A DNA stretch of 41,205 bases. It comes from Chitinophagaceae bacterium. Lineage in GTDB: Bacteria; Bacteroidota; Bacteroidia; Chitinophagales; Chitinophagaceae. Below the pieces are notes generated by a model that did no database searches, had not been told where the DNA came from, and saw only the letters and a list, made by a program, of their open reading frames with translations. Position 1 is the stretch's first letter; every line of letters begins with the position of its first letter. The DNA lies in the NCBI GenBank assembly GCA_021299175.1, contig JAJTFY010000018.1, forward strand, positions 1-41,205. Direction: 5' to 3'. Below, one piece after another: positions 8,111 to 21,186 of the stretch. Made by a program: the position numbers and the translations under genes.

Positions 8111-8139
8111 TTGATATGCTCACAAAACCAGCAATAAAG

Positions 8140-9423
8140 ATGAAAGGCAATTTTCTGTACGTAATGGGATTGTTGTCACTCGGACTGTTCATGACCGGGT
8201 GTGGAAAATCAGGCAAATCAGGCGGATCTGTTGGTGATGGCCAGTTGCACGGTGTTTCCCTGGGAGGAAAATACGTAATGCCAAAGCCTCCTGGCATGAT
8301 TTATGTCCCCTCAGGAACCTTTCACATGGGTCCTTCTGATGAAGACATCAGCTATGCATTCACTGCGAGAAACAAGCAGGTGTCCATCAATGGATTTTGG
8401 ATGGATGCAACTGAGATTACCAATGATGAATACCGCCAGTTTGTTTTTTGGGTAAGGGATTCCATCGCAGGAAGTATTTTGAATTTCAAGAAAAATGCTC
8501 CTGATGGATCCAGTGCGATTGACTGGGCCAAGGTAAGAACCATCAAGTGGGCAGATCCAAAGATCCAAGAGCAATTGAGTGCTTTGATTGTAACACCCGA
8601 CAATAGGATCAATGGCAGAAAAGAACTGGATGCCAAGAAAATCATCTACCACTCTGAGTGGTTGGATTACAAAGAAGCTGCCCAAAGGGAAAATGCTGAC
8701 AAGCCTAGGTCTAATTTTGTTGTGAAAAAAGATACTCCCATTTATCCTGATACCTTGGTTTGGATCCGTGATTTTTCTTACTCGTACAATGAGCCGCATG
8801 CTAAAAAATATTTCTCTCATCCAGCCTATGGTGGTTATCCTGTGGTAGGTGTAAGCTGGAAGCAAGCAACAGCTTTCACTGAATGGAGAACACATTACCT
8901 CAATTCATTTTTAGAAAGGTCAAAGCGCATGACAGAATCAGACTTCAGGCTTCCTACAGAGGCTGAGTGGGAATATGCTGCGCGTGGTGGTCGCTCACAG
9001 GTTCCTTTCCCCTGGGGTGGTCCATACCTGCGGAACAAGAAAGGATGTTTGTTAGCGAATTTCAAACCAGGCCGCGGCAACTATCCAGAAGATGGTGGAA
9101 TGTATACGGTAAGGGCTGACGCCTATTGGCCCAATGATTTTGGTCTATACAATATGGCAGGCAATGTTGCTGAGTGGACCTCTTCCCTCTACTATGAAGG
9201 GGCGTACAATTTCCAGCATGACATGAACCCTGACATCAGGTGGAATGCAAAAGACAATGATCCTCCCAGGATGAAAAGAAAAGTGGTGCGTGGCGGTAGT
9301 TGGAAGGATATCGGTTTTTTCCTTCAAAATTCAACAAGGAATTATGAATACCAGGATACGACCAAATCCTATTTGGGCTTCCGTTGTGTAATTGATCTTC
9401 CTCCAATGCAGACCAAGCGCTAA
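8140..9423 (+). CDS. gldK: GldK/PorK type IX secretion ring lipoprotein
   Basis: GldK (PorK) forms, with GldN, the periplasmic ring under the outer membrane in the type IX secretion system. This 427-residue protein has a lipoprotein signal ending in LFMTGC, followed by a formylglycine-generating-enzyme (FGE-sulfatase) fold. Recognisable blocks are MIYVPSGTFHMGPSDED, the N-terminal WMDATEITNDEYRQFV, VVGVSWKQATAFTEW, RLPTEAEWEYAARGG and NMAGNVAEWTSS. The fold is structural in GldK rather than catalytic. The ATG at 8140 gives a compact lipoprotein signal; an upstream ATG at 8116 would add eight residues. It is the first gene of gldKLMN, with 42 bp to gldL. No porP/sprF gene precedes it in this window. 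Confidence 0.93.
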   Translation: MKGNFLYVMGLLSLGLFMTGCGKSGKSGGSVGDGQLHGVSLGGKYVMPKPPGMIYVPSGTFHMGPSDEDISYAFTARNKQVSINGFWMDATEITNDEYRQFVFWVRDSIAGSILNFKKNAPDGSSAIDWAKVRTIKWADPKIQEQLSALIVTPDNRINGRKELDAKKIIYHSEWLDYKEAAQRENADKPRSNFVVKKDTPIYPDTLVWIRDFSYSYNEPHAKKYFSHPAYGGYPVVGVSWKQATAFTEWRTHYLNSFLERSKRMTESDFRLPTEAEWEYAARGGRSQVPFPWGGPYLRNKKGCLLANFKPGRGNYPEDGGMYTVRADAYWPNDFGLYNMAGNVAEWTSSLYYEGAYNFQHDMNPDIRWNAKDNDPPRMKRKVVRGGSWKDIGFFLQNSTRNYEYQDTTKSYLGFRCVIDLPPMQTKR

Positions 9424-9465
9424 ACTTCTTTTATACCCAAACTTACTTCAATAAAAATTCATTTT

Positions 9466-10224
9466 ATGTCATCATCCAACTCCTCTTCAACGTTCGAGAA
9501 ATATGTAAACATTTTTGTTAGCGTAGGTGCTGCTGTAGTAATTTTTGGCGCCTGGGCAAAAATCCTCCATAAATCATTTGCAGATATCATGCTCACTGTC
9601 GGCCTTTTGACAGAGGCGGTCATTTTCCTTGTATATGCATTTTTGGAGATGAAAAAACCTGTTACTCCTGAGGCAGCTGTTGCAACGGGTGGTGCCAGTG
9701 CTACTCCGGGTGCTGATTTGCTGAAAGAAACCATTGAAAAATACCTGGATACCGATCAGCTCACCAAATTGAATGGAAACTTTTCAAAGTTCAATTCAAC
9801 CGTTCAGGGTATGGCTTCAATGGGTGATGTTGCTGCGGCTACGTCTGAGTTTGCAGGAAAGACCAAAGAGGCAACTGCAGCACTGAATATCATGAAAGAT
9901 GCTTACGCGAATGCAGCCGGTTCTGTTCAGCAGTTCAATACGGCTGCAGAGGGTTCAAAAGCTTTCCATGAGCAGGTACAGTCTCTGACCAAGAACCTCG
10001 GTTCATTGAACAAAATGTATGAGTTGGAATTGCAGGATTCAGGCAACCACATCAAGGCCATGAATGCATTCTATGACAACCTGATCAAGGCCAGCCAGGC
10101 CATGCAGGGTAGTGTGGATGATGCCAAGAAAACGCAGGAACAAATTGCCTTGCTTGCAAAAAATCTTGGTAGCCTGAACAGCGTTTATGGCAACATGCTC
10201 TCAGCCATGCAAGGCCGTGGTTAA
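9466..10224 (+). CDS. gldL: GldL/PorL type IX secretion motor protein
   Basis: GldL is the inner-membrane stator of the proton-driven type IX motor and pairs with GldM. Two transmembrane helices occupy roughly residues 14-33 and 40-60 (VNIFVSVGAAVVIFGAWAKI and IMLTVGLLTEAVIFLVYAFL). A long cytoplasmic coiled-coil region rich in Ala, Gln and Leu follows up to residue 252. Glu50, inside helix 2, sits where the family has a glutamate needed for proton use, and Lys32 lies at the end of helix 1. It is 42 bp after gldK and 44 bp before gldM. Confidence 0.93.
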   Translation: MSSSNSSSTFEKYVNIFVSVGAAVVIFGAWAKILHKSFADIMLTVGLLTEAVIFLVYAFLEMKKPVTPEAAVATGGASATPGADLLKETIEKYLDTDQLTKLNGNFSKFNSTVQGMASMGDVAAATSEFAGKTKEATAALNIMKDAYANAAGSVQQFNTAAEGSKAFHEQVQSLTKNLGSLNKMYELELQDSGNHIKAMNAFYDNLIKASQAMQGSVDDAKKTQEQIALLAKNLGSLNSVYGNMLSAMQGRG

Positions 10225-10268
10225 TGGCCAGTTCACCTGAATTCTAATCTTTAAACTCATTTATTTAT

Positions 10269-11813
10269 ATGTCACTACCTAAAGAACCGAGGCAGAAAAT
10301 GATCAACATCATGTATTTGGTGTTGACTGCACTGCTGGCTTTGAATGTGTCTGCTGAAATCCTTAATGCATTTAAGGTGGTAGACAATAGCCTGAGGGAG
10401 TCGAACAATGTTTTGGCCACTTCCACAAGTGGTATTTATACCAGCCTTGGAGAAATGCTTAAAGATCCAAAATCCGCTGAAAAAGCGGGAATATGGAAGC
10501 CCAAGGCCGATCAGGTAAAAGCCATTGCTGATGAAGCCTATGGTATTTTGGAAAAATACAAGCAGGCATTGAAAGAGGAGTCTGACCTGGATCCAACCAA
10601 TGGTTCTTTCCGGGAAGACAATATTGATGCATCAACCAGGTATTTTGACACAAAAGGGAATGGTAAGCCTTTGTACGCGTCACTGGAAAATTTCAAGAAA
10701 AAATTGCTGGCAGTAGATCCTGAGATGACAGCCCAGATCGGATCAAAACTTCCATTGAGCCTTGAAATTCCAAAATCTGCCGCAGGCAATGTTTCTACTG
10801 GCGATAAAGTAAAGGACTGGGTCAACAATTATTTTCACATGACGCCAACCATTGCGTCTTTGACGATCCTTAGCAAGTTTCAAAACGATATCAAAAATTC
10901 AGAGAACCTGGCAGCAACTTTTTGTGTCAACCAAGTAGGTGCTGTGAAGTTGATCATGGACAAGTTCGAGCCATTGGTGGGAACAAGTTCTACCTATCTG
11001 ATGCCCGGTGAGGAAATGATAGTTACTGCGGGTCTTGGCGCTTTCAACTCTAATGTGAAGCCAGTCGTTAACATCGACGGAGCAAGCATTCAGGTCAATG
11101 CCAATGGTGTTGCTGAGAAAAAATTCAACGTAGGTGGATCTGGTTCCAGGAGCATGAACGTCAGTGTGAGTTTCGTTGATCCCAATACAGGTGAGAACAA
11201 AACGATTTCCAAGAAAATTGATTATACTGTTGGTTCACCCTCAGGTATTGCCGTTTCTCCAGATAAGATGAATGTTCTTTATATCGGTGTTGAGAATCCC
11301 GTTACCATCACTGCCGGTGCTGGAAGTGAAAAAGTATCAGCCCAGTTCAGCGGTGGCAGCATTTCAAAAGTTAGTGGCAACAAATACATTGTCAAGCCTG
11401 GTTCAGGAATGTTTGGTGAACATACCATTACCGTTTTGGTTGAAGGAAAATCTGCTGGAAAAGTTACTTTCCGCGTGAAACAGCTTCCCGATCCTGTGGC
11501 ATATGTGGGGAACCTTAAACCAGGCAATGTGCCATCAGCATCATTCAAGGCCATGGGAGGTGTAATTGCGAAATTACAGGATGCAGAATTTGATGCTCCC
11601 TTTGAAGTGGTAAGCTACAAGCTCGGTGCAGCCGGAACTGGTGGTGATTTCGTTCAACTCGATAACCGTGGATCCAGGTGGACAGGAGATGCAGCTGGAT
11701 TGGTAGGACGTTTGAAGCCCGGATCACTGGTGGCCATTACGGATATTGTTGTAAAGGATCCCGGGGGGAAATCAAGGGTATTGCCTACAAGCCTTACCTA
11801 CATTCTTAAATAA
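10269..11813 (+). CDS. gldM: GldM/PorM type IX secretion motor shaft
   Basis: GldM has one N-terminal transmembrane helix in the GldL bundle and four periplasmic domains that reach the GldK/GldN ring, transmitting motor rotation. The protein is 514 residues. The signature PRQKMINIMYLVLTALLALNVS at residues 7-28 contains Arg8, corresponding to the conserved arginine that pairs with the GldL glutamate. A helical domain follows to about residue 220. The remainder is beta-rich Ig-like domains (for example PVVNIDGASIQVNANGVAEKKF, then SGIAVSPDKMNVLYIGVENPV). It is 19 bp upstream of gldN. Confidence 0.94.
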   Translation: MSLPKEPRQKMINIMYLVLTALLALNVSAEILNAFKVVDNSLRESNNVLATSTSGIYTSLGEMLKDPKSAEKAGIWKPKADQVKAIADEAYGILEKYKQALKEESDLDPTNGSFREDNIDASTRYFDTKGNGKPLYASLENFKKKLLAVDPEMTAQIGSKLPLSLEIPKSAAGNVSTGDKVKDWVNNYFHMTPTIASLTILSKFQNDIKNSENLAATFCVNQVGAVKLIMDKFEPLVGTSSTYLMPGEEMIVTAGLGAFNSNVKPVVNIDGASIQVNANGVAEKKFNVGGSGSRSMNVSVSFVDPNTGENKTISKKIDYTVGSPSGIAVSPDKMNVLYIGVENPVTITAGAGSEKVSAQFSGGSISKVSGNKYIVKPGSGMFGEHTITVLVEGKSAGKVTFRVKQLPDPVAYVGNLKPGNVPSASFKAMGGVIAKLQDAEFDAPFEVVSYKLGAAGTGGDFVQLDNRGSRWTGDAAGLVGRLKPGSLVAITDIVVKDPGGKSRVLPTSLTYILK

Positions 11814-11832
11814 AGCATTAAAAAAGTCTACA

Positions 11833-12888
11833 ATGAAATTATCTTCATTCAAAGGGTTGTTTTTGGTTTGTTTGTCTACACTCATCGTATGTCAGGGTGT
11901 TGAAGCACAAGCAAAAAAGAAGACTACCACTGCTCCTAAAAAGACTACAGCTAAGCCAGCGGCAAACAAGCCGGTTGCCAATACACAGGTACTTGACGCC
12001 AATGTCACTCCAATGCCTGTTGACACTGTAAAGCCTGCGCCACCCCCACCACCTAAAGATCCATTTGCATTTGATTCTGTGAGGATGTCACTGCGTTCAG
12101 ATGCTGCAGTAGATAGGAATCTTGTAAAAAGCCGTACTCCATTGTCGTATGAGCATATCCGCGAGGATGATGCCTGGTACCGTGAGCGTGTTTGGAGGGA
12201 AATTGACATCCGCGAAAAAATGAACCTCCCTTTCCGTTATAAGGCCGAAGACGATAACGGGAATCAGCGTTTCATTAGCATACTGTTGCGTGCCATTAAA
12301 AAAGGAGACGTAACTGCATTTGATCCCAATGTTGACGATCGTTTTACAACGCCAATGACTGTGGCCAAAGTAGGTGAAGTTATTTCTGGGAGGTGTGATT
12401 CTGTTCAGGTAATTGATTGGGCAAAAGATCCTACTGGTTCAAAAGGAATCATGAAAGATTCTCTGGTTTGCAAGGAGTTCAATCCTGATGACATCATGAA
12501 GTTCCGCATAAAAGAAGAGTGGGTTTTTGACAAGGAATCTTCAAGGATGGTCACCAGAATTTTAGGTATCGCTCCCATAAAGACCTACACAGATGATCAG
12601 GGTAATGTATTGGGTGAATCCCCCATTTTTTGGGTGTACTATCCAGACCTGCGTCCGGTATTGTCAGTTTACGAAGTGTACAATGGCAAGAATTTTGGAG
12701 CCAGAATGAGTTGGGAAGAACTTTTCGAGAGCCGTTATTTTGCAAGCTATATTGTAAAATCTTCCATTGAGAATCCTTACGATATGTTTATCAAGCAGTA
12801 CATCAAGGATGATATCATGAAATTGCTTGAAGGTGAAAATATCAAGAACAAGATCTTCAATTTCGAGCAAGACCTTTGGTCTTTCTGA
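11833..12888 (+). CDS. gldN: GldN/PorN type IX secretion ring protein
   Basis: GldN partners GldK in the periplasmic ring of the type IX secretion system. The 351-residue protein has a signal peptide (KGLFLVCLSTLIVCQGVEAQA). A low-complexity linker rich in Lys, Thr, Ala and Pro (about residues 27-75) follows, then the conserved GldN domain. Characteristic segments include REDDAWYRERVWREIDIREKMN, FRIKEEWVFDKESSRM and SPIFWVYYPDLRPVLSVYEVYN. It ends the gldKLMN set; a strong hairpin lies just downstream and convergent uvrC follows. Confidence 0.93.
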   Translation: MKLSSFKGLFLVCLSTLIVCQGVEAQAKKKTTTAPKKTTAKPAANKPVANTQVLDANVTPMPVDTVKPAPPPPPKDPFAFDSVRMSLRSDAAVDRNLVKSRTPLSYEHIREDDAWYRERVWREIDIREKMNLPFRYKAEDDNGNQRFISILLRAIKKGDVTAFDPNVDDRFTTPMTVAKVGEVISGRCDSVQVIDWAKDPTGSKGIMKDSLVCKEFNPDDIMKFRIKEEWVFDKESSRMVTRILGIAPIKTYTDDQGNVLGESPIFWVYYPDLRPVLSVYEVYNGKNFGARMSWEELFESRYFASYIVKSSIENPYDMFIKQYIKDDIMKLLEGENIKNKIFNFEQDLWSF

Positions 12889-12906: not shown

Positions 12907-12934
12907 AAAATGGGCTGTACATACAGCCCATTTT
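12907..12934. terminator. Bidirectional terminator between gldN and uvrC
   Basis: TGGGCTGT (12911-12918) pairs with ACAGCCCA (12923-12930) around ACAT. The stem extends through AAAA (12907-12910) and TTTT (12931-12934). T tracts flank it in both directions, so it can serve gldN on the plus strand and uvrC on the minus strand. Its right edge touches the uvrC stop codon. Confidence 0.85.
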
Positions 12935-14733
12935 TATTTGCTGAAATGTCTGCTAATCAAGTTTGCTTTTTTACTGCCAACAAGTTCTGTCAATTCCTCC
13001 ATGGTGGCTGAACGGATGTTCTTGACCGATCTGAAGCGGTTCAGCAGTTCGTAGGCCGTTTTTTTACCAATCCCATTGATCCCCTCCAACTCGTTTTTAA
13101 AAGTCCCCTTGCTTCTTTTTTGCCGGTGAAAAGTAATGCCATACCGGTGAACCTCATCTCGAATACTTCTGATGAATTTCAATACATCGCTGTTGTATTC
13201 CAGTTTCAAGGATTCTTGGTCTCCAGCAAAAAAAAGTTCTTCAACATTCTTTGCCAATCCTACCAAGGTCATTTTGCCCGATAAGCCCAATTCATGAATG
13301 GCTGCCATGGCCGATCCCAGTTGCCCTTTGCCACCGTCAATGATCACAAGCTGCGGCAGTGGGGCTTTCTCTTCAATAAGGCGCTTATACCTCCGTCCTA
13401 CAGCCTCTTTCATGGTGGCGAAATCATTGATGCCTTCAACGGTTTCAACATTGAAATGTCTGTAGTCTTTTTTGCTGGGCGAACCATTTTTAAAACAAAC
13501 CATGGCAGAAACTGGGTATGCACCTTGGAAATTGGAGTTGTCAAAACATTCTATGTGGGTAGGCAGCTGATTGAGCGAAAGGGCTTTCATCACCTTGGGC
13601 AATAACTCCTCGTTGACATATTCGTTCTCCGCCAGGTGAAGCCTTTTCTTCCTGTTGATTTCCGCAATGAGATAGTCTGCATTGGTTTGTGCCATCTCCA
13701 GTAGCTTTTTCTTTTCACCTGATTTTGGAATGGTCAGTTGATAGTCTTCAAAACCAAATTCAATGTTCATTGGGAGCACCAGTTCTTTTGCATCACTGCT
13801 GTAAAGGCTTTGAAAATAAATGATGGCTTGTGAAAGAATTTCCGCCTCTTCCTCTTCAATCTTCAGCCTGAAGGCATTGGTTCCTGAATTGGTGATCGTT
13901 CCATTCCTTACTGCAAGAAAGCTTACAATGATTTGATCATCAGTTTTGGCCATTGCAAAAACATCAAGGTCTCCCAGTCGAGGACTCACCACAATGGATG
14001 AAGACCTGTAGTTCCTGAGGGAACTGATTTTTTGTTGCATCATATCGGCTTTTTCAAAGGCCAGATCAGCTACATACTGTTGTTGTTCTTTTTTGTATTG
14101 GGCAATGATTCCACTGAGGTTCCCTTTCATCACATGTCTTATTTGATCCACTCCCATGGCATATTCATTGGCATGCTGCAATCCAACACAGGGGCCTTTG
14201 CAATTGCCCAAATGATATTCCAGGCAAACTTTGTATTTCCCTTTTTTAATATTGTTGTCTGAAAGATTCAGGCTGCAGGTCCTCAGTGGTATATGTTGTT
14301 TGATAAACTCCAGTAGGTCCCGTACTTTAGCGGCAGTGGTAAAAGGACCAATATACTCAGAGCCATCGTTTATTTTTCTCCTTGTCAGGAATACCCTGGG
14401 GAAATCTTCTTTTTTGATGACGATGAATGGATAAGTCTTGTCATCCTTGAGTTCAATATTATACCTGGGTTTGAACTCCTTGATCAGCGCATTCTCCAGC
14501 AACAGCGCATCATGCTCGGATTGAACGATGGTAAATTCAATATGCCGTATTTGCTTGACGAGTTCATTTGTTTTGAAAGAGTGGTTGCTTTTGGTAAAGT
14601 ATGAACTGACACGCTTTCTGATGTTTTTTGCTTTTCCTATGTATAGGAGATTCTGCTGGGCACCGTAGTATTTATAGATACCGGGTGCATTCGGCAATGT
14701 TTTCTGGATGGTGGTAAAATCAAATTGTTCCAT
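12934..14733 (-). CDS. uvrC: UvrABC excinuclease subunit C
   Basis: UvrC makes both incisions in nucleotide excision repair. The 599-residue protein begins with a GIY-YIG endonuclease domain (PGIYKYYGAQQNLLYIGKAKNI). A four-cysteine segment CSLNLSD...VCLEYHLGNCKGPC follows, in the place where UvrC homologues carry an iron-sulphur cluster. Next come the UvrB-interacting region, the RNase H-like UvrC domain (HIECFDNSNFQG, VIIDGGKGQL) and C-terminal helix-hairpin-helix motifs (LEGINGIGKKTAYELL). I chose the ATG at 14733. A TTG in frame at 14739 would overlap the stop of the upstream lipoprotein gene by four bases. Two bases separate that stop (14736-14738) from the chosen start, suggesting coupled translation. 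Confidence 0.95.
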   Translation of the reverse strand: MEQFDFTTIQKTLPNAPGIYKYYGAQQNLLYIGKAKNIRKRVSSYFTKSNHSFKTNELVKQIRHIEFTIVQSEHDALLLENALIKEFKPRYNIELKDDKTYPFIVIKKEDFPRVFLTRRKINDGSEYIGPFTTAAKVRDLLEFIKQHIPLRTCSLNLSDNNIKKGKYKVCLEYHLGNCKGPCVGLQHANEYAMGVDQIRHVMKGNLSGIIAQYKKEQQQYVADLAFEKADMMQQKISSLRNYRSSSIVVSPRLGDLDVFAMAKTDDQIIVSFLAVRNGTITNSGTNAFRLKIEEEEAEILSQAIIYFQSLYSSDAKELVLPMNIEFGFEDYQLTIPKSGEKKKLLEMAQTNADYLIAEINRKKRLHLAENEYVNEELLPKVMKALSLNQLPTHIECFDNSNFQGAYPVSAMVCFKNGSPSKKDYRHFNVETVEGINDFATMKEAVGRRYKRLIEEKAPLPQLVIIDGGKGQLGSAMAAIHELGLSGKMTLVGLAKNVEELFFAGDQESLKLEYNSDVLKFIRSIRDEVHRYGITFHRQKRSKGTFKNELEGINGIGKKTAYELLNRFRSVKNIRSATMEELTELVGSKKANLISRHFSK

Positions 14734-14735
14734 GA

Positions 14736-15290
14736 TCAATTGCCTATGGCCCAGTTGTACCTTTCGGTAAGGTTGTTCAACAATAGTCCTTGCCTGTAAA
14801 AACTGGTATTCACCATCAATTCAGTAGCAGATGTCCAAAGGATTTTTCTGATCAGCAGTTTTTCTCCCTCGACTTCCTGTCTTTCTGCAAAAATGCTTTT
14901 TATTTTATTGGAGCCCCCATCAATATTGAGCTCAATTTTTTTTATGGGTAGGTCTGGATCTTCTGTGGTATAACCAATTGAAATATTGTTCAACGCTGCA
15001 TCTTCCAGCACAAGTTCCTGATATTTATTTTTGTACTTTTTTTCCTGAAAATCAATGCCGACCAACTTCATGGCCAATGCCCTGAAATTCTTTTTATCAA
15101 CTACGGAAGTATCAGACTTGCCATTTGTTTCACTGGTGAGGATGATGGCAATAGGGAGAGATTCGATTTGTGCAAGCTCTTCTTCAAGAAATGCAGCAAT
15201 AGGGAAATGATTTTTCTCTTCAGTTGAATTACTGCATGCAGTGAAAAATAGCAACAACAAAGGGAAAATGAATCTTCTTTTCAGCATCAT
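14736..15290 (-). CDS. Putative lipoprotein of unknown function
   Basis: I do not recognise a named family for this 184-residue protein. It begins with MMLKRRFIFPLLLLFFTACS, a clear lipoprotein signal with lipid-acceptor Cys19. The mature part mixes short beta strands and helices, with repeated lysine/glutamate patches and a stretch reading KKIELNIDGGSNKIKSIFAERQE. No membrane helix follows the signal. It lies 32 bp after the predicted anti-sigma gene and 2 bp before uvrC on the same strand, so it is probably co-transcribed. Its cell-envelope location fits the sigma/anti-sigma genes better than it fits DNA repair. Confidence 0.75.
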   Translation of the reverse strand: MMLKRRFIFPLLLLFFTACSNSTEEKNHFPIAAFLEEELAQIESLPIAIILTSETNGKSDTSVVDKKNFRALAMKLVGIDFQEKKYKNKYQELVLEDAALNNISIGYTTEDPDLPIKKIELNIDGGSNKIKSIFAERQEVEGEKLLIRKILWTSATELMVNTSFYRQGLLLNNLTERYNWAIGN

Positions 15291-15322: not shown

Positions 15323-16606
15323 CTATTTTATTGTTTTGATGACACCAACCTTGATGCCCAAATCCATCAGGTTCTCCTTGATAGGATATTTTGATTTGAA
15401 GCTGGAGAGCATCTGGTAACGGAATTGTGGGGCGATGCTCCATTTGAAGCCGCCCTTTTGCATGTTGAGATTGGCTTCAATCGCAGCATTCATGTTCCAT
15501 CTTCTGTTGAGTGTCGGCTCTTTGGCGTAATGTTTCAAATCTGTAGAAAGGAGGTAAGAGTAATTGGCAAAAACATAGGTAGGTTGGATGGTAGAGGCAA
15601 GAGAAAAATTAAGTTTTTTCGTTCCAGCAATCTCATAGTCGACTCCAACAGGCATGGATATCATATAGTGTTCATTGCGGAGGATGGCCGGCGAATAGCC
15701 TCCATTGTTCCTGTAAAACGAAACAGCACTGATCGGGTAGCTGCCAAATGCATAGTTGTTCATGCCATAATTGGCGACTTCAGGCACAGCATTGAAAGCC
15801 TCAATCTGATAATGGTTGTAGTTTGCCTGAAGACCAGCTTTGAAGTTCAGTTTTTTGGAAAGTGGATAGAACATGGCAGTACCAATTTCAAAACCCATCC
15901 CCGGCTTATGGGTAACAGCATCCTTGACATTCCTTGCAAAAACTGCATTGGTGCTCAATGAAAAAACACTGTATTGATAGACGGATCTTGACGCTTCACC
16001 ATTCAGTCTCCGATAGCCCATGGTTGGGGTGGCATAGATCTGCCAGCTTGCATTTTTCTTTATCTTTTTGGCTTGCTCCATCACGGTTTCAATCGCGGAA
16101 CCTATAGAACTCTTTTTGTCTTCTTTGGGCAGATCGGTATCCAGAAGCTTTTTGATCTCAGGCATCAAAACGGGTTCAATATTTTTCAACTGCTTGGGCA
16201 GTTCAACGGTCAGGTCTTTTTGTCCTGCTGAGGCCAGCTCAGCAAGAGTGGACATTCCATCGTTATCATGACTGATTGGAAAAGTATTGTATTTGTTATT
16301 TGCTGTAGCTGAGGCATTTGATTTGTCGAAATGATCAGTTGATTCCGCAATCAAATCCCTCTCAATAAACCTGGCTGCAACCTGACCCAGTGGAGAACTT
16401 GCATAAGAAGCTTTTTCCTTGTTGACTACAATGGCTGTAGTGGTACCGAGGAATAGAAACAAAACCAGCAATCCATACCTGAGCACCCTGTTGGGATGCA
16501 ATTCCTTTTGGATATTGTTCCATATACGGTCAGAAGGATAGAGCAGGTATTGGTCTGATCTTTCCTTCAGCAGGTCTTCAAGTTCATCTGTTGGTTCTTG
16601 TCTCAT
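15323..16606 (-). CDS. Predicted dual-membrane-spanning anti-sigma factor
   Basis: With the ATG at 16606 the protein has 427 residues. Residues 1-40 form a charged cytoplasmic segment (DELEDLLKERSDQYLLYPSD, then RIWNNIQKELHPN). One hydrophobic helix follows (YGLLVLFLFLGTTTAIVV, about 43-61). A polar, helical linker runs from about 62 to 187. The C-terminal 240 residues are rich in alternating strands with aromatic edges (SWQIYATPTMGYRRL, FKAGLQANYNHYQ, WSIAPQFRYQML), like an outer-membrane barrel. It directly follows an ECF sigma gene. This matches the layout of the Dma anti-sigma factors described in Bacteroides thetaiotaomicron; homology was not tested. An upstream in-frame ATG at 16663 would overlap the sigma gene by 28 bases. 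The alternative is an unrelated membrane-anchored beta-barrel protein. Confidence 0.7.
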   Translation of the reverse strand: MRQEPTDELEDLLKERSDQYLLYPSDRIWNNIQKELHPNRVLRYGLLVLFLFLGTTTAIVVNKEKASYASSPLGQVAARFIERDLIAESTDHFDKSNASATANNKYNTFPISHDNDGMSTLAELASAGQKDLTVELPKQLKNIEPVLMPEIKKLLDTDLPKEDKKSSIGSAIETVMEQAKKIKKNASWQIYATPTMGYRRLNGEASRSVYQYSVFSLSTNAVFARNVKDAVTHKPGMGFEIGTAMFYPLSKKLNFKAGLQANYNHYQIEAFNAVPEVANYGMNNYAFGSYPISAVSFYRNNGGYSPAILRNEHYMISMPVGVDYEIAGTKKLNFSLASTIQPTYVFANYSYLLSTDLKHYAKEPTLNRRWNMNAAIEANLNMQKGGFKWSIAPQFRYQMLSSFKSKYPIKENLMDLGIKVGVIKTIK

Positions 16607-16635
16607 GTTCACCGGTATCTGCTGGTCTATTCCTG

Positions 16636-17217
16636 TCAAACGATCCTGACGGGAGAAAACCATTTTTTCTTTTCTTTGGGTTGCTGGATGATTCTCTTGT
16701 TCAAAAGGATTTCTTCCAACATGCTTTTTGCCCTGGTGTATTGTGAACGGCTTGTGCTTTCCTCAATGTCCAGCAATTGTCCGATTTCCTTGTGGGAATA
16801 ACCTTCAATGGCATAGAGATTCAAAACCGTTCTGTATCCGATAGGCAATGTTCTGATGGTCTCAACTATCTGTTTAGCCTGAATGATGCTTGGAATATAG
16901 TCCTCTCTGATGACCATATTTCCAGCATAAGCAAGGTCAACATTGTCGTTGAATTTCTTATTTTTTTTGAGGTGGTTGATGCAGGTATGAACAATGATGC
17001 GAAGTATCCATCCTTCCAGCGATCCCCGTTTTTCAAATTTGGTGATCTGGCTGAAAACCTTGATGAATCCCTCTTGCAACATGTCCTCGGCATCTTCTCG
17101 GTTTTTAGCATAACGATAGCATACGGAAAGCATTTTAGGACTGTAGCGTTGATACAGTTCTTGCTGTGCAGTAGCATCATTTTTCAGACAACCTTGAAGC
17201 AGCACCTCTTCTGTCAT
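16636..17217 (-). CDS. ECF-family RNA polymerase sigma factor
   Basis: This is a sigma-70-family extracytoplasmic-function factor of 193 residues. Region 2 is seen in LYQRYSPKMLSVCYRYAKNREDAEDMLQEGFIKVF, followed by FEKRGSLEGWILRIIVHTCINHLKK. Region 4 is seen in LPIGYRTVLNLYAIEGYSHKEIGQLLDIEESTSRSQYTRAKSML. The C terminus is basic (KEKKKWFSPVRIV). The ATG at 17217 is preferred over an ATG three codons upstream. It is followed on the same strand by the predicted anti-sigma gene and preceded by a TonB receptor gene 94 bp away. Such factors usually autoregulate their own operon and are held inactive by the adjacent anti-sigma protein. Confidence 0.93.
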   Translation of the reverse strand: MTEEVLLQGCLKNDATAQQELYQRYSPKMLSVCYRYAKNREDAEDMLQEGFIKVFSQITKFEKRGSLEGWILRIIVHTCINHLKKNKKFNDNVDLAYAGNMVIREDYIPSIIQAKQIVETIRTLPIGYRTVLNLYAIEGYSHKEIGQLLDIEESTSRSQYTRAKSMLEEILLNKRIIQQPKEKKKWFSPVRIV

Positions 17218-17311
17218 GAGAATCAAAAATTGTTCTCTGAAATTAAGATAATTTTATATCAAGAGGTGCTGCTTTGGGGGATTCTTTTGTTGATAATGCT
17301 AATCCATTGAT

Positions 17312-19618
17312 TTACAGGCCCAGTCTTAGGCTGATGATCCAATTCCTGCCTGGTGCTGAAAAGCCAGAGGCAAAATACCGGTAATTGAGATCAAGGATGT
17401 TTTCTATTCCTGCATGGATACCCAGTCTTTGGTTTACCTGCAGACCTGTTTTTAAGTTAATGGTTTGCCATGAGGGTGTTCCTTTAGCAGTCGCGTACTG
17501 GGCATTGTCTTCGCCATCAGCATTGTATTGGTCAAGTTTTTTCCAACCGTTGAACAGCAGGCTCAATGTTGCATACAGCTTCTGGTTGTCATATCCAATA
17601 CTCATGTTTCCAAATGCAGGTGGGATATGATCAAGGGGCTTGGTGCTCACTTTGGATTGAACCAGCACATAGGTTCCATTGGACTGCAATTGATAGACCA
17701 GGCTGGCTTTGCTAGCATCGGTCATGAACCTGCCCTTTGTGAAATTAACCGTTGAATTGAACTTCCAGTTTTTCCCCGCTTTTACAGAAAGCCGTATGTT
17801 GCCCCCAAGTATATAGGCTCGGTTTACATTTTGGCTGGCCAGCACCTGCGATTGAACACCATTGTAATTGATAGAATCCTTTCCATTCAACCTGAATGGT
17901 GCCTTGATGATGGCATTGGTAAAATCAGTATAAAATGCGCCAACCTCAAATTCAAATGCTTTCCCCAGGCCCTTTACCAGCTCAGCATCAAAACCATGGG
18001 TGAATTCAGGTTTCAGGTCTGCATTGGGTACAACCACTTGCTTGGCTACTGTGCTTGACTCAAATATTTTGGCAAGGTCATCTATATTGGGTGCCCTGAA
18101 GCCAGAGGCGTACCCAAATTTTATTCTTGTGCGCGTTGATGGCATATAGACCAGTCCTATGTTTCCGGTGATGGCCATGTTTTTTTGTGCAATATTGGTT
18201 ACAGGTAAAGCGAAAAATGAATTGTTGATGATATTCGATTTCAGTGTAATGTATTGAATGCGCAAGCCCTCATTCAAGATCCATTTTTGTTTCTTGAACT
18301 TGTGTATGTGTTGGGTGTAAACAGCGAAATTGTTCATCCTGTTTTTGCCGTCGGGATACCTGCTGTCTAGTGGTAGGATCGCATTCGTCAATAAATTCGT
18401 TCTGCTTGCGGTAGAACGCAGATCATTCAGTTGCAGGTCAATACCAGCAGTGATTTCGTCTTGCTTTAATTTTTTTCTCGCATCGATGGTGAGTCCGCCA
18501 ACACCCACATTTTCAATCCTTTTGTCAAAGCGGTCATACCGTTTGTACTCCCTTGTTATCCTGCTTTCTTCAATTGATTGATAACTCAGTGTTGCATTGT
18601 ATTCATTGAAAAAACCCTTGCTGTTGTTGGCAGAAAAAGTATAGGCGAACAGGGATCTTTTTTGTGGGCCGTAATACCAGGATGCAAATCGCAACAGCCC
18701 ATCCCTGCTATCTTGAAGGCGATCATACCTCGGCACATCTGAACTGTTTGAATATTGGATGTTCAATCCGTGGGAAATATTGGCATTGGGCTTGTACAAG
18801 AATTTTTGCGTAAGGTCAGTTTGAGTATATCCGGAAAACCGTTGTATGCGATCATTGTTGTTTTTGATGATGGTGTCACCAATGATGCCATTGAAGGGTT
18901 GGATATAATAAGGCCTGGTGCCAAATCCCTCGAATCCCTTCATGTCTCTCTTTCCGATCTTTGAATCACCAAAATTGCTCTGGGTAATACTGGTCAACAG
19001 TCCGATTTTTCCCCACCCAACGCTCAGATCAGCATGGACTGTTTTTTCTGCATTTGCAGATGAAAAGCGGCTGAAGACATTGGAGACAACTTTTGTTTTG
19101 TTTTTCTCTTTGGATAAAACAGGTTGTTTGCTGATCATGTGAACGGCACCGCCCAGAGCATCACTGCCAAACAAAGTTGACGAAGGACCTTGCAGTAGTT
19201 CTACACTTTCCAGGATGTTTTGATCAACAGTAATGATATTTTGCAAATGTCCAGACCTGTAAATAAGGTTGTTCATGCGTACCCCATCAACAACAAATAA
19301 AACACGACTGGCTTCGAAACCCCTGATGACTGGGCTGCTTCCTCCTTGCTGGCTTTTCTGAACAAAGACATTGCCTGTAGACATCAAGAGGTCGCCCATG
19401 TTTTGTGCATTGGCCTTTTTGATATAAGAGGAAGAAATGATGTCTATTTTCTGGACAATGTTTTTTTTCTTCTCTGCGAATTTGTTTCCAGAAACAACAA
19501 TTTCACTCAGCTCCTTTTCAAGGATGCTATCTTTTGATTGCTGGGCCTGTGTTGTAGAGAGCATACAAAATGTCAGCATCACCAGTTTGGCAGCATAGAA
19601 AACTTTCATGATGCTCAT
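17312..19618 (-). CDS. TonB-dependent receptor, haem/haemoglobin-receptor-like
   Basis: This is an outer-membrane transporter of about 768 residues. A signal peptide (MKVFYAAKLVMLTFCMLSTTQAQ) is followed by a TonB-box-like start (LSEIVVSGNKF). The plug domain carries PVIRGFEASRVLFVVDGVRMNN, VELLQGPSSTLFGSDALGGAV, and a 22-strand-type barrel follows, ending ...GRNWIISLRLGL. The plug resembles the haemoglobin/transferrin/lactoferrin receptor group, so haem is a plausible substrate but not shown. Starts are ambiguous: the ATG at 19660 overlaps the gpmI stop codon (ATGA), while the ATGs at 19618 and 19609 give more normal signal peptides. An ECF sigma gene lies downstream, a common regulatory pairing. 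Confidence 0.9.
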   Translation of the reverse strand: MSIMKVFYAAKLVMLTFCMLSTTQAQQSKDSILEKELSEIVVSGNKFAEKKKNIVQKIDIISSSYIKKANAQNMGDLLMSTGNVFVQKSQQGGSSPVIRGFEASRVLFVVDGVRMNNLIYRSGHLQNIITVDQNILESVELLQGPSSTLFGSDALGGAVHMISKQPVLSKEKNKTKVVSNVFSRFSSANAEKTVHADLSVGWGKIGLLTSITQSNFGDSKIGKRDMKGFEGFGTRPYYIQPFNGIIGDTIIKNNNDRIQRFSGYTQTDLTQKFLYKPNANISHGLNIQYSNSSDVPRYDRLQDSRDGLLRFASWYYGPQKRSLFAYTFSANNSKGFFNEYNATLSYQSIEESRITREYKRYDRFDKRIENVGVGGLTIDARKKLKQDEITAGIDLQLNDLRSTASRTNLLTNAILPLDSRYPDGKNRMNNFAVYTQHIHKFKKQKWILNEGLRIQYITLKSNIINNSFFALPVTNIAQKNMAITGNIGLVYMPSTRTRIKFGYASGFRAPNIDDLAKIFESSTVAKQVVVPNADLKPEFTHGFDAELVKGLGKAFEFEVGAFYTDFTNAIIKAPFRLNGKDSINYNGVQSQVLASQNVNRAYILGGNIRLSVKAGKNWKFNSTVNFTKGRFMTDASKASLVYQLQSNGTYVLVQSKVSTKPLDHIPPAFGNMSIGYDNQKLYATLSLLFNGWKKLDQYNADGEDNAQYATAKGTPSWQTINLKTGLQVNQRLGIHAGIENILDLNYRYFASGFSAPGRNWIISLRLGL

Positions 19619-19656
19619 TTTTGGTAACAACCGGCTACCCAATTTGTTAAGATTCG

Positions 19657-21186
19657 TCATTGGTCTACCAATACATCTCCGGTCATTTCTGCTGGAATGG
19701 GCAAGCCCATGAAATGAAGAATGGTGGGAGCAATATCGCCGAGTTTGCCAGGCTTTACAGTTCCTTTCCAATGTTTGTCAATGATAAAAAGTGGAACAGG
19801 GTTCAGCGTATGGGCAGTGTTGGGGCTTCCATCCTCATTTTTCATGAAGTCTGCATTGCCATGGTCTGCTGTGAGGAATACGGTGTAATCGTTTTCAATA
19901 GCAGCTTCCACCACCTTTTTCACACAGGCATCTACTGTTTCTACAGCCTTGACAGCCGCTTCCCAAACGCCAGTATGACCAACCATGTCTGCATTCGCAT
20001 AGTTGAGGCAGATGAAGTCGGCGGTCTTCGCTTTTATCTCGGGGACAATTTTATCAGTCAATTCATGCGCACTCATTTCGGGCTGAAGGTCATAGGTGGC
20101 AACTTTTGGAGAGGCTGCCATGATTCTTGTTTCCCCTTCAAATGGGAGCTCCCTGCCACCACTGAAAAAGAAAGTGACATGGGGATATTTTTCTGTCTCG
20201 GCTATCCTGATCTGGGTCTTGCCATGAGATGCCAATACTTCCCCAAGGGTATGGGTAAGGTTATCATTCCTGAAAATGACATCCACGTTGTTGAACGTGC
20301 TGTCATACTCGGTCATGGTCGTATACTCCAGTGTGAGTTTGTGCATGCCCAATTCAGGGAAGTCTTTTTGGGTCAGTACCTCTGTAATCTCACGGCACCT
20401 GTCAGTCCTGAAATTGAAGCATATCACTGCGTCATCTGCTGCAATGGTGGCAAGGGGTTTGTTGTCTTCACCAGTGATGATGATGGGCTTGATGAACTCA
20501 TCTGTGGTATTTTCCGCATAGGCAGATTGAATGGCATCTGTTGCGGAGTTTGCCATGGAGCCAATTCCGTTGACCATGGCATCATAGGCAAGCTTAACCC
20601 TTTCCCAGCGCTTGTCACGGTCCATGGCATAATACCTTCCAATGACCGATGCTATTTTACCTGCCGAACCTTTTAAGTGCGCTTCCAGGGCTGCAACAAA
20701 ACCAAGACCACTCTTGGGGTCGGTGTCGCGGCCATCAGTAAAGGCATGGATGTATACAGAAGACAATCCTTCGGCCTTGCAAAGGTCTGTGATAGCCCTC
20801 AGGTGTGAGGTGTGTGAATGAACGCCCCCATCACTGACCAGCCCTATAAGGTGTAATTTTTTGTTGTTCTTTTTGGCATAATGTATGGCATTCAGCAAGG
20901 TTGGATTCTGTTGAAATTCACCTGTTCGAATGGCCACATTGATCCTCTGCAATTCCTGGTAAACAATTCTTCCTGCTCCCAGGTTCAGGTGTCCAACCTC
21001 ACTGTTCCCCATTTGTCCATCTGGCAAACCCACTGGCTCGCCACAGGTAACCAGTGTAGCGTTCGGATACTGGGCATATAGGGAGGATACAAATGGTACA
21101 TGGGCATGTTTGATAACATCACTATTTTCAACCGCACCATGGCCCCAACCGTCCATGATCACGAGGATACATTTTTTATTTTCCAT
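19657..21186 (-). CDS. gpmI: 2,3-bisphosphoglycerate-independent phosphoglycerate mutase
   Basis: GpmI interconverts 3- and 2-phosphoglycerate using two manganese ions and a phosphoserine intermediate. The 509-residue length is standard. Metal and nucleophile motifs are seen in IMDGWG, QMGNSEVGHLNLGAGR (with the nucleophilic serine), GGVHSHTSHLRA, DGRDTDPKSG, NYANADMVGHTG and FLTADHGNADFM. The stop codon TGA overlaps a downstream ATG (ATGA at 19657-19660) in frame with the TonB receptor, so the two may be translationally coupled. Upstream, TAATTTTA (21191-21198, minus strand) is a one-mismatch -7 element close to the start. Confidence 0.96.
   Translation of the reverse strand: MENKKCILVIMDGWGHGAVENSDVIKHAHVPFVSSLYAQYPNATLVTCGEPVGLPDGQMGNSEVGHLNLGAGRIVYQELQRINVAIRTGEFQQNPTLLNAIHYAKKNNKKLHLIGLVSDGGVHSHTSHLRAITDLCKAEGLSSVYIHAFTDGRDTDPKSGLGFVAALEAHLKGSAGKIASVIGRYYAMDRDKRWERVKLAYDAMVNGIGSMANSATDAIQSAYAENTTDEFIKPIIITGEDNKPLATIAADDAVICFNFRTDRCREITEVLTQKDFPELGMHKLTLEYTTMTEYDSTFNNVDVIFRNDNLTHTLGEVLASHGKTQIRIAETEKYPHVTFFFSGGRELPFEGETRIMAASPKVATYDLQPEMSAHELTDKIVPEIKAKTADFICLNYANADMVGHTGVWEAAVKAVETVDACVKKVVEAAIENDYTVFLTADHGNADFMKNEDGSPNTAHTLNPVPLFIIDKHWKGTVKPGKLGDIAPTILHFMGLPIPAEMTGDVLVDQ

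Follow-up and report, generated by a model that had tools for sequence, protein, structure and literature searches.

The closest described counterparts of the system reported here are the Dma and Reo proteins. Dma1/Das1, Dma2/Das2 and Dma3 of Bacteroides thetaiotaomicron combine an anti-sigma domain, one helix, a long disordered tether and a barrel, like the protein analysed below, and Dma1 and Dma2 have a sigma gene adjacent, again as here (PMC13088901). The same paper describes the layout and operon of Dma2 and the induction of das2 without Dma2, das2 and its neighbours being among the most induced genes (PMC13088901). The third gene of the dma2 operon, BT_1557, codes for a DUF4943 protein, whereas the third gene of our operon codes for a lipoprotein for which a Pfam scan gave no match; our operon also differs in that uvrC comes next, and no NigD was found in the genome from which it comes. 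For EcfO/Reo of Bacteroides fragilis and Phocaeicola vulgatus, it is reported that the anti-sigma factor spans from cytoplasm to cell surface, as we propose here, that Reo is thought to sense outer-membrane stress, and that the sigma gene is strongly induced under stress (PMC13114119, PMC9308784); for our system self-induction is predicted. An anti-sigma transposon mutant of P. vulgatus is reported to have had just 15 genes past a strict cut-off (PMC9308784). Dma and Reo systems are known experimentally from a few gut species, and a version of them occurs in 68 of 98 sampled genera of the family to which our genome belongs. In the FecI/FecR/FecA system the receptor and the anti-sigma factor are separate proteins. 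Like that system, ours would inform an ECF sigma factor, across the periplasm, about the state of the outer membrane, but with both ends in one protein. What the present locus adds is a conserved lipoprotein partner, a readable predicted promoter, natural unfused relatives and a fixed gene order.

The window, by which we mean the whole stretch of 41,205 nucleotides analysed, comes from a Chitinophagaceae bacterium whose genome (2.27 Mb in 164 contigs) was searched as well and is called the own genome below. The operon lies on the minus strand, as do all the genes and features given here unless stated otherwise. Its first gene (16636-17217) codes for a 193-residue ECF sigma factor that matches Sigma70_r2 (7.9e-20) and Sigma70_r4_2 (4.7e-13) of Pfam as well as TIGR02937 (E 2.6e-26); the cut-off of the FecI-type family TIGR02985 (Sig70_bacteroi1) is missed, at 86.8 bits versus 126.4. 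The open reading frame of this gene reaches back to a TTG at 17226 (16636-17226), but relatives share a start that corresponds to the ATG at 17217; the conserved start of the gene 3' of it is at 16606. That gene (15323-16606) encodes the Dma-type protein of 427 residues. It is followed by the lipoprotein gene (14736-15290, 184 residues) and by uvrC (12934-14739), probably the final gene of the operon. The TTG start of uvrC at 14739 overlaps the lipoprotein gene, and an alternative ATG at 14733 does not. Between uvrC and the convergent gldN is a terminator-like hairpin of 12 pairs (12907-12934, plus strand), although the scan of the window for such hairpins was not above chance overall (11 observed, 9.3 expected). 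gldN is the last of four consecutive genes of type IX secretion and gliding, gldK, gldL, gldM and gldN (8116-12888). Directly 5' of the sigma gene is a gene for a TonB-dependent receptor (17312-19717), closest to haem receptors (TIGR01785) with a score below the cut-off, and next to that is gpmI (19657-21186). An Rfam scan of the window returned zero matches.

A first, sequence-only reading of this DNA had pictured the 427-residue protein as a short cytoplasmic segment, one strong transmembrane helix, a linker of about 125 residues and an outer-membrane barrel of about 240, and this division holds well. The sole strong hydrophobic helix is residues 44-62 (16421-16477), with a mean Kyte-Doolittle value of 1.88 against 0.56 for the next best 19-residue stretch. 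Lysine and arginine are commoner N-terminal of this helix than C-terminal of it in 46 of 53 homologues, as an N-in orientation requires; the predicted topology has the N-terminus in the cytoplasm. The cytoplasmic domain (residues 1-43, 16478-16606) carries the motif P-x-x-x-x-W-x-x-I; in an alignment of 33 rows D18, P24, S25 and W29 are invariant. More generally, P-x(2-5)-W-x-x-[ILVM] is present within the first 70 residues of 50 of the 53 window-family proteins, in 28 of 29 Bacteroidales-type proxies for Dma (defined below) and in 13 of 14 remoter relatives, compared with 34 of 606 other open reading frames of the loci. Conservation over the 53 homologues averages 0.58 for residues 1-37 and 0.51-0.66 for the strands, versus 0.22 for the tether (residues 63-165, 16112-16420); a predicted helix before the barrel (residues 166-186, 16049-16111) stands at 0.29. 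From the helix to the first strand there are 124 residues in the window protein and 124-200 across the homologues. In the structure model described next, blocks of residues 61-160 have a pLDDT of 21-31, so that the tether, as modelled, appears long and disordered like that of the Dma class.

Is the C-terminal region (residues 187-427 plus the stop codon, 15323-16048) indeed an outer-membrane barrel? Scanned singly, the window protein matches nothing significantly in Pfam or NCBIfam, and in a search of the own genome with OMP_b-brl_2 it was found at E 0.0012 with 19.3 bits, the cut-off being 27. The same profile matches 22 of 33 aligned proteins at E <= 0.1, the best at 9.2e-9. Models of the Dma-type protein and of the lipoprotein were built from seven sequences (the window and L002-L007). 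Modelled alone, as the earlier reading had proposed, the Dma-type protein ends in a barrel, at a low mean pLDDT of 45.8 with blocks in the barrel region ranging from 27 (loops) to 81. DSSP finds nine longer strand pieces in this model, of which 307-317 and 320-328 are read as one, making probably eight strands, joined by short turns on the periplasmic side and by four loops on the outside. With Foldseek, the best 50 of 1060 rows (E <= 10) are all outer-membrane proteins or a designed membrane barrel. VIA gave the same Z of 11.6 for NspA (1p4t; rmsd 3.4 over 154 residues) and the OmpA barrel (1bxw; rmsd 4.1 over 164 residues), with soluble designed barrels (Z 8.8-8.9) and PsbO (8.5) in lower rows. 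The likeness of this low-confidence model to the eight-strand barrels of OmpA and NspA is one of fold alone, from which we claim no kinship. A pattern that agrees with the beta-signal of BAM is present within the last 20 residues, at the last strand, of 52 of 53 homologues versus 79 of 572 other open reading frames. A search of PDB sequences with the family profile gave nothing meaningful, and no relatives of the protein were found in the viral contigs searched.

As proxies for Dma we took relatives of proteins encoded beside NigD, which published work ties to Dma1 and EcfO (PMC13088901, PMC13114119); their orthology to Dma1/Reo is deduced from this adjacency and from a sigma-fused copy. Two of six NigD loci are flanked by a sigma gene and a gene for a protein of 409-425 residues. 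Relatives of the NigD-linked protein were found at 30 loci, with the sigma gene adjacent in 28, fused in one (L113) and a contig end in one. In profile-profile comparison the window family (33 rows) matched these proxies (29 rows) over the full length at 97.8% (E 4.9e-12), which bears out the kinship with Dma that the sequence-only reading had raised as a question; control profiles of the lipoprotein and of sigma factors reached at most 0.4%. The N-terminal domain taken singly matched the proxies at 93.5% (E 3.5e-8) and the remoter relatives at 98.5% (E 1.8e-14). The barrel matched that of the proxies at 70.7%, and at 49.5% when the comparison was repeated in reverse order, and those of twelve remoter barrel-bearing relatives at 97.6-97.9%. 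Since a generic barrel profile scored 1.1, 13.7 and 74.6% against the three sets, the barrel comparison by itself is not decisive: the barrels of the window family and of the Dma relatives are likely akin, and most of the certainty on kinship comes from the N-terminal domain. Eleven single proxy sequences compared with the window family ranged from 0.6 to 46%.

The sigma factors tell the same story. In a sigma tree, 34 Dma-linked sigma factors and one further sigma of the own genome (L040) form one group (support 96/95, 94% of bootstrap trees) in which window-type sigmas join those of the proxies, and eight other ECF sigmas of the own genome fall outside it. This tree is midpoint-rooted and has several long branches; L047 and the primary sigma (L038) were left out, and the L044 reading frame is cut by a contig end. 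In a sample of the phylum the family profile found matches in 26 of 394 genomes. Those outside the family are weak and for the most part cover the N-terminal half alone; when whole open reading frames are compared, a few extend as far as the barrel (in L061 up to position 432 of 460). The 16 remoter Dma-like loci (14 outside the family and two second copies within it, some of the same genus) each have the gene directly 3' of a sigma gene. Domain order, sigma pairing and profile kinship to the proxies support the assignment of the protein to the Dma/Reo kind; domain order, gene order, homology and the conserved motif can all be read directly from the sequences. We found no published report of a Dma-type system in Chitinophagaceae, in a literature search made mostly in broader terms.

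The Dma-type protein was found in 199 of 294 sampled genomes of the family (own genome included), and in 181 of the 265 of better quality; 95 of the 294 gave no match. Its gene lies directly downstream of the sigma gene in 42 of 45 loci; each of the remaining three has at most 190 nt upstream, so that the pairing holds in 42 of the 42 loci with room for it. (The 45 loci are 44 distinct ones, L032 and L049 being one place.) The lipoprotein gene comes next in 39 of the 45, all of which have at least 700 nt downstream. A second sample of 20 genomes was hand-picked from lower among the matches listed, three of its members (G020, G145, G085) being also among the 45; it has the sigma gene in 20 of 20, the lipoprotein gene in 19 and uvrC in 20 (in two pieces in L138). 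Over these 20 and four more loci the median gaps are 24 nt between the sigma and Dma-type genes (n = 24), 58 between the latter and the lipoprotein gene (n = 23) and 10 between lipoprotein gene and uvrC (n = 23). A TonB receptor gene like that of the window is found on the same strand in 5 of the 20, and likewise in L002-L004. From these counts the core is sigma factor, Dma-type protein and lipoprotein, with uvrC, and the TonB receptor is optional. The synteny with uvrC may mean that DNA repair is coupled to an envelope signal, or it may be synteny only. The pairing of sigma factor and 427-residue protein noted at the outset is borne out, and the suggestion that the lipoprotein may be a third component gains support from synteny. 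Cys19 of the lipoprotein is invariant in 29 aligned copies; its model has a mean pLDDT of 51.3 and a best PDB match at E 0.025, from which we draw no conclusion.

Upstream of the sigma gene the family shares a motif, GCAGCA-N15/16-TGTCTA, that lies 24-31 nt 5' of the ATG in 47 of 55 distinct loci (at least 9 of 12 positions); the other eight have no motif close to the sigma start. A score of 11-12 of 12 was reached by 44 of the 55 upstream regions, from which the consensus had itself been derived, and with equal spacers by 0 of 550 shuffled and 0 of 55 reversed sequences; with wider spacers one of 550 shuffled sequences did so. The window copy, a predicted sigma-dependent promoter at 17245-17272, consists of GCAGCA (17267-17272), a 16-nt spacer and TATCTT (17245-17250), the -10 block being one change from that of the nearest relatives (TGTCTT). 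Between it and the sigma ATG is a leader (17218-17244) in which a small hairpin is possible; such a hairpin is lineage-restricted (z below -1.5 in 21 of 47). Several lineages have an inverted repeat in this interval, with differing letters, that could be an operator or a leader hairpin. The upstream regions of the remoter sigma genes (L060-L077, L040) showed no such motif, scoring 7-9 of 12. Among the Bacteroidales-type proxies, GCAGTA-N15-CATTT occurs near the sigma start in 12 of 26, versus 0 in 520 shuffles, and two of these 12 copies overlap the called start of the open reading frame. The proxy upstream regions concerned are those of L085 and L091-L119, and the motif can be written GCAGTATTTTT-N-CATTT. 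An EcfO motif is said to have been published (PMC7366714), and the proxy motif may equal it. Compared with the window family, the proxies have a similar -35-like block and spacing and a different -10-like block; a GCAG(C/T)A block similarly spaced in both groups suggests a common promoter grammar for the Dma/Reo kind.

Which genes would this sigma factor drive? When the motif with its A-tract was searched for across the own genome, the window site came out best, at one mismatch; four further matches to that form lie inside open frames of more than 360 codons. A looser core matched 19 times, a count inflated by coding bias, since the reversed pattern gave one match. All 19 lie within open frames of at least 162 codons, which alone is weak evidence because a chance frame of 187 codons on the opposite strand covers the window site as well. 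Pfam matches were obtained, however, for each of the ten shortest of these frames, and the other nine have 551 to 1008 codons, so that at the stringency used the operon's own copy is the only intergenic match found. Within the window, with three mismatches allowed, the N16 form matched 70 times (45 expected) and the N15 form 37 times (33 expected), and matches this loose were set aside. Eight other genomes together contain 31 exact copies of the motif, of which 30 were classified: 5 before sigma genes of the Dma-linked type, 15 in open frames and 10 outside frames. Four of these ten are 73-157 nt before genes judged SusC-like by eye, and two are 28-29 nt before other genes (L207, L220). As the other own-genome matches lie in open frames, the sigma factor is predicted mainly to drive its own operon, with a core output of sigma factor, Dma-type protein, lipoprotein and perhaps UvrC. 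This prediction fits the induction of the das2 region without Dma2 and the 15 genes of the P. vulgatus mutant; by comparison, three nigD genes belong to the EcfO regulon. A correctly predicted promoter would allow a reporter to be built on it and the signal to be screened for.

Taken together, the locus is very probably a sigma/anti-sigma switch of the Dma (Reo) kind that induces its own operon. One chain with an N-in helix and a BAM-inserted barrel must connect both membranes, and 124 extended residues (about 45 nm) are enough to span a periplasm of some 20-30 nm. In such a switch the cytoplasmic N-terminal domain (residues 1-43) would hold the sigma factor, the single helix would anchor the protein in the inner membrane, the loose tether would cross the periplasm and the small barrel would sit in the outer membrane. 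A disturbance of that membrane or of barrel assembly would lead to the protein being cut or pulled and the sigma factor freed, most likely through proteolysis of the chain once it is exposed. The freed sigma would then read GCAGCA-N16-TATCTT before its own gene and raise the levels of sigma factor, Dma-type protein, lipoprotein and probably UvrC. The contact with sigma, the nature of the signal, the proteolytic release and the reading of this motif by this sigma are steps that we infer. A barrel-bearing anti-sigma factor could in this way report outer-membrane trouble directly to the genes.

What the barrel senses admits of more than one answer, and sequence does not decide between outer-membrane stress and a glycan signal. 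The barrel might be a test piece for outer-membrane assembly, whose failure would expose the tether to proteases and let the sigma factor fire one dedicated operon comprising its own gene and those for the lipoprotein and UvrC. With the protein's own BAM signal at its far end, the anti-sigma factor would be safe only as long as barrel insertion goes on. We regard this as possible rather than probable; if true, the unfused, fused and sigma-fused forms described below would be a sensor built stepwise. On another account, which we would call somewhat unlikely, the barrel is a ligand receptor with its site in the short conserved outer loops, and binding, not assembly stress, frees the sigma factor. 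L3 and L4 are conserved like the strands (0.61 and 0.60, versus 0.35 and 0.44 for L1 and L2), and a glycan ligand is favoured by the Dma2 authors (PMC13088901); yet conserved loops may serve folding, retention in so many of the sampled genera suits a general stress more than a single nutrient, and a window-like TonB receptor is upstream in only a quarter of the 20 sampled genomes.

The lipoprotein could instead be the real sensor, or a lock on the barrel, leaving the barrel a mere anchor, by analogy with other envelope sensors made up of a lipoprotein and a small barrel. Its steady place behind the Dma-type gene and within the predicted self-induced operon argues for this, but its sequence drifts more than that of the Dma-type protein (the 23 remoter copies are 17-34% identical to that of the window, versus 30-38% for remoter Dma-type proteins) and a fold search with its low-confidence model gave no match. 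Nor was it seen beside the 16 remoter Dma-like genes, a weak point given that only 5 of the 16 have at least 700 nt downstream; on balance we think this role rather improbable. A quite different possibility is a C-terminal region that forms a soluble beta domain in the periplasm, with the whole protein staying in the inner membrane. The window protein does pass no curated family cut-off, and some soluble barrels reach VIA Z values of 8.5-8.9, but the OMP_b-brl_2 matches of its relatives, the membrane barrels that fill both the best 50 Foldseek rows and the top VIA rows, and the near-universal beta-signal-like end make this very improbable indeed.

The sigma/anti-sigma switch preferred here has relatives in which its parts are arranged differently. 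The second sigma factor of the Dma-linked group in the own genome (L040, 1420-2379) is followed by a barrel-less protein of 132 residues, a candidate anti-sigma factor with two P-x-x-x-W-like motifs and a hydrophobic stretch, which matched the N-terminal domain of the proxies at 84.8% and that of the window family at 6.2%. At three unfused loci, L062:412-2566 and L063:942-3174 (one genus) and L066:107-2605, the sigma gene is followed by one for a barrel-less anti-sigma factor of about 254 residues and by a separate third gene whose product has, by eye, a signal peptide. OMP_b-brl_2 matches this product above its cut-off in L062 (6e-8) and L063 (4.9e-8); that of L066 has no Pfam match. Profile comparison of the separate barrel-like proteins with the fused barrels gave only 0.2-10.8%, so their identity is not established. 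The tail SLGDLINVVV of the L062 anti-sigma factor resembles SIGSAIETVM of the window's pre-barrel helix, a likeness that may be chance since this helix is little conserved. At L113:337-2010, finally, sigma factor, anti-sigma domain and barrel make up one protein of 557 residues, as described for Dma3. By their predicted domains, four arrangements thus exist: the L040 form, the unfused, the fused and the triple-fused. Besides L113, more matches of the proxy search sit in frames of about 550-616 codons.
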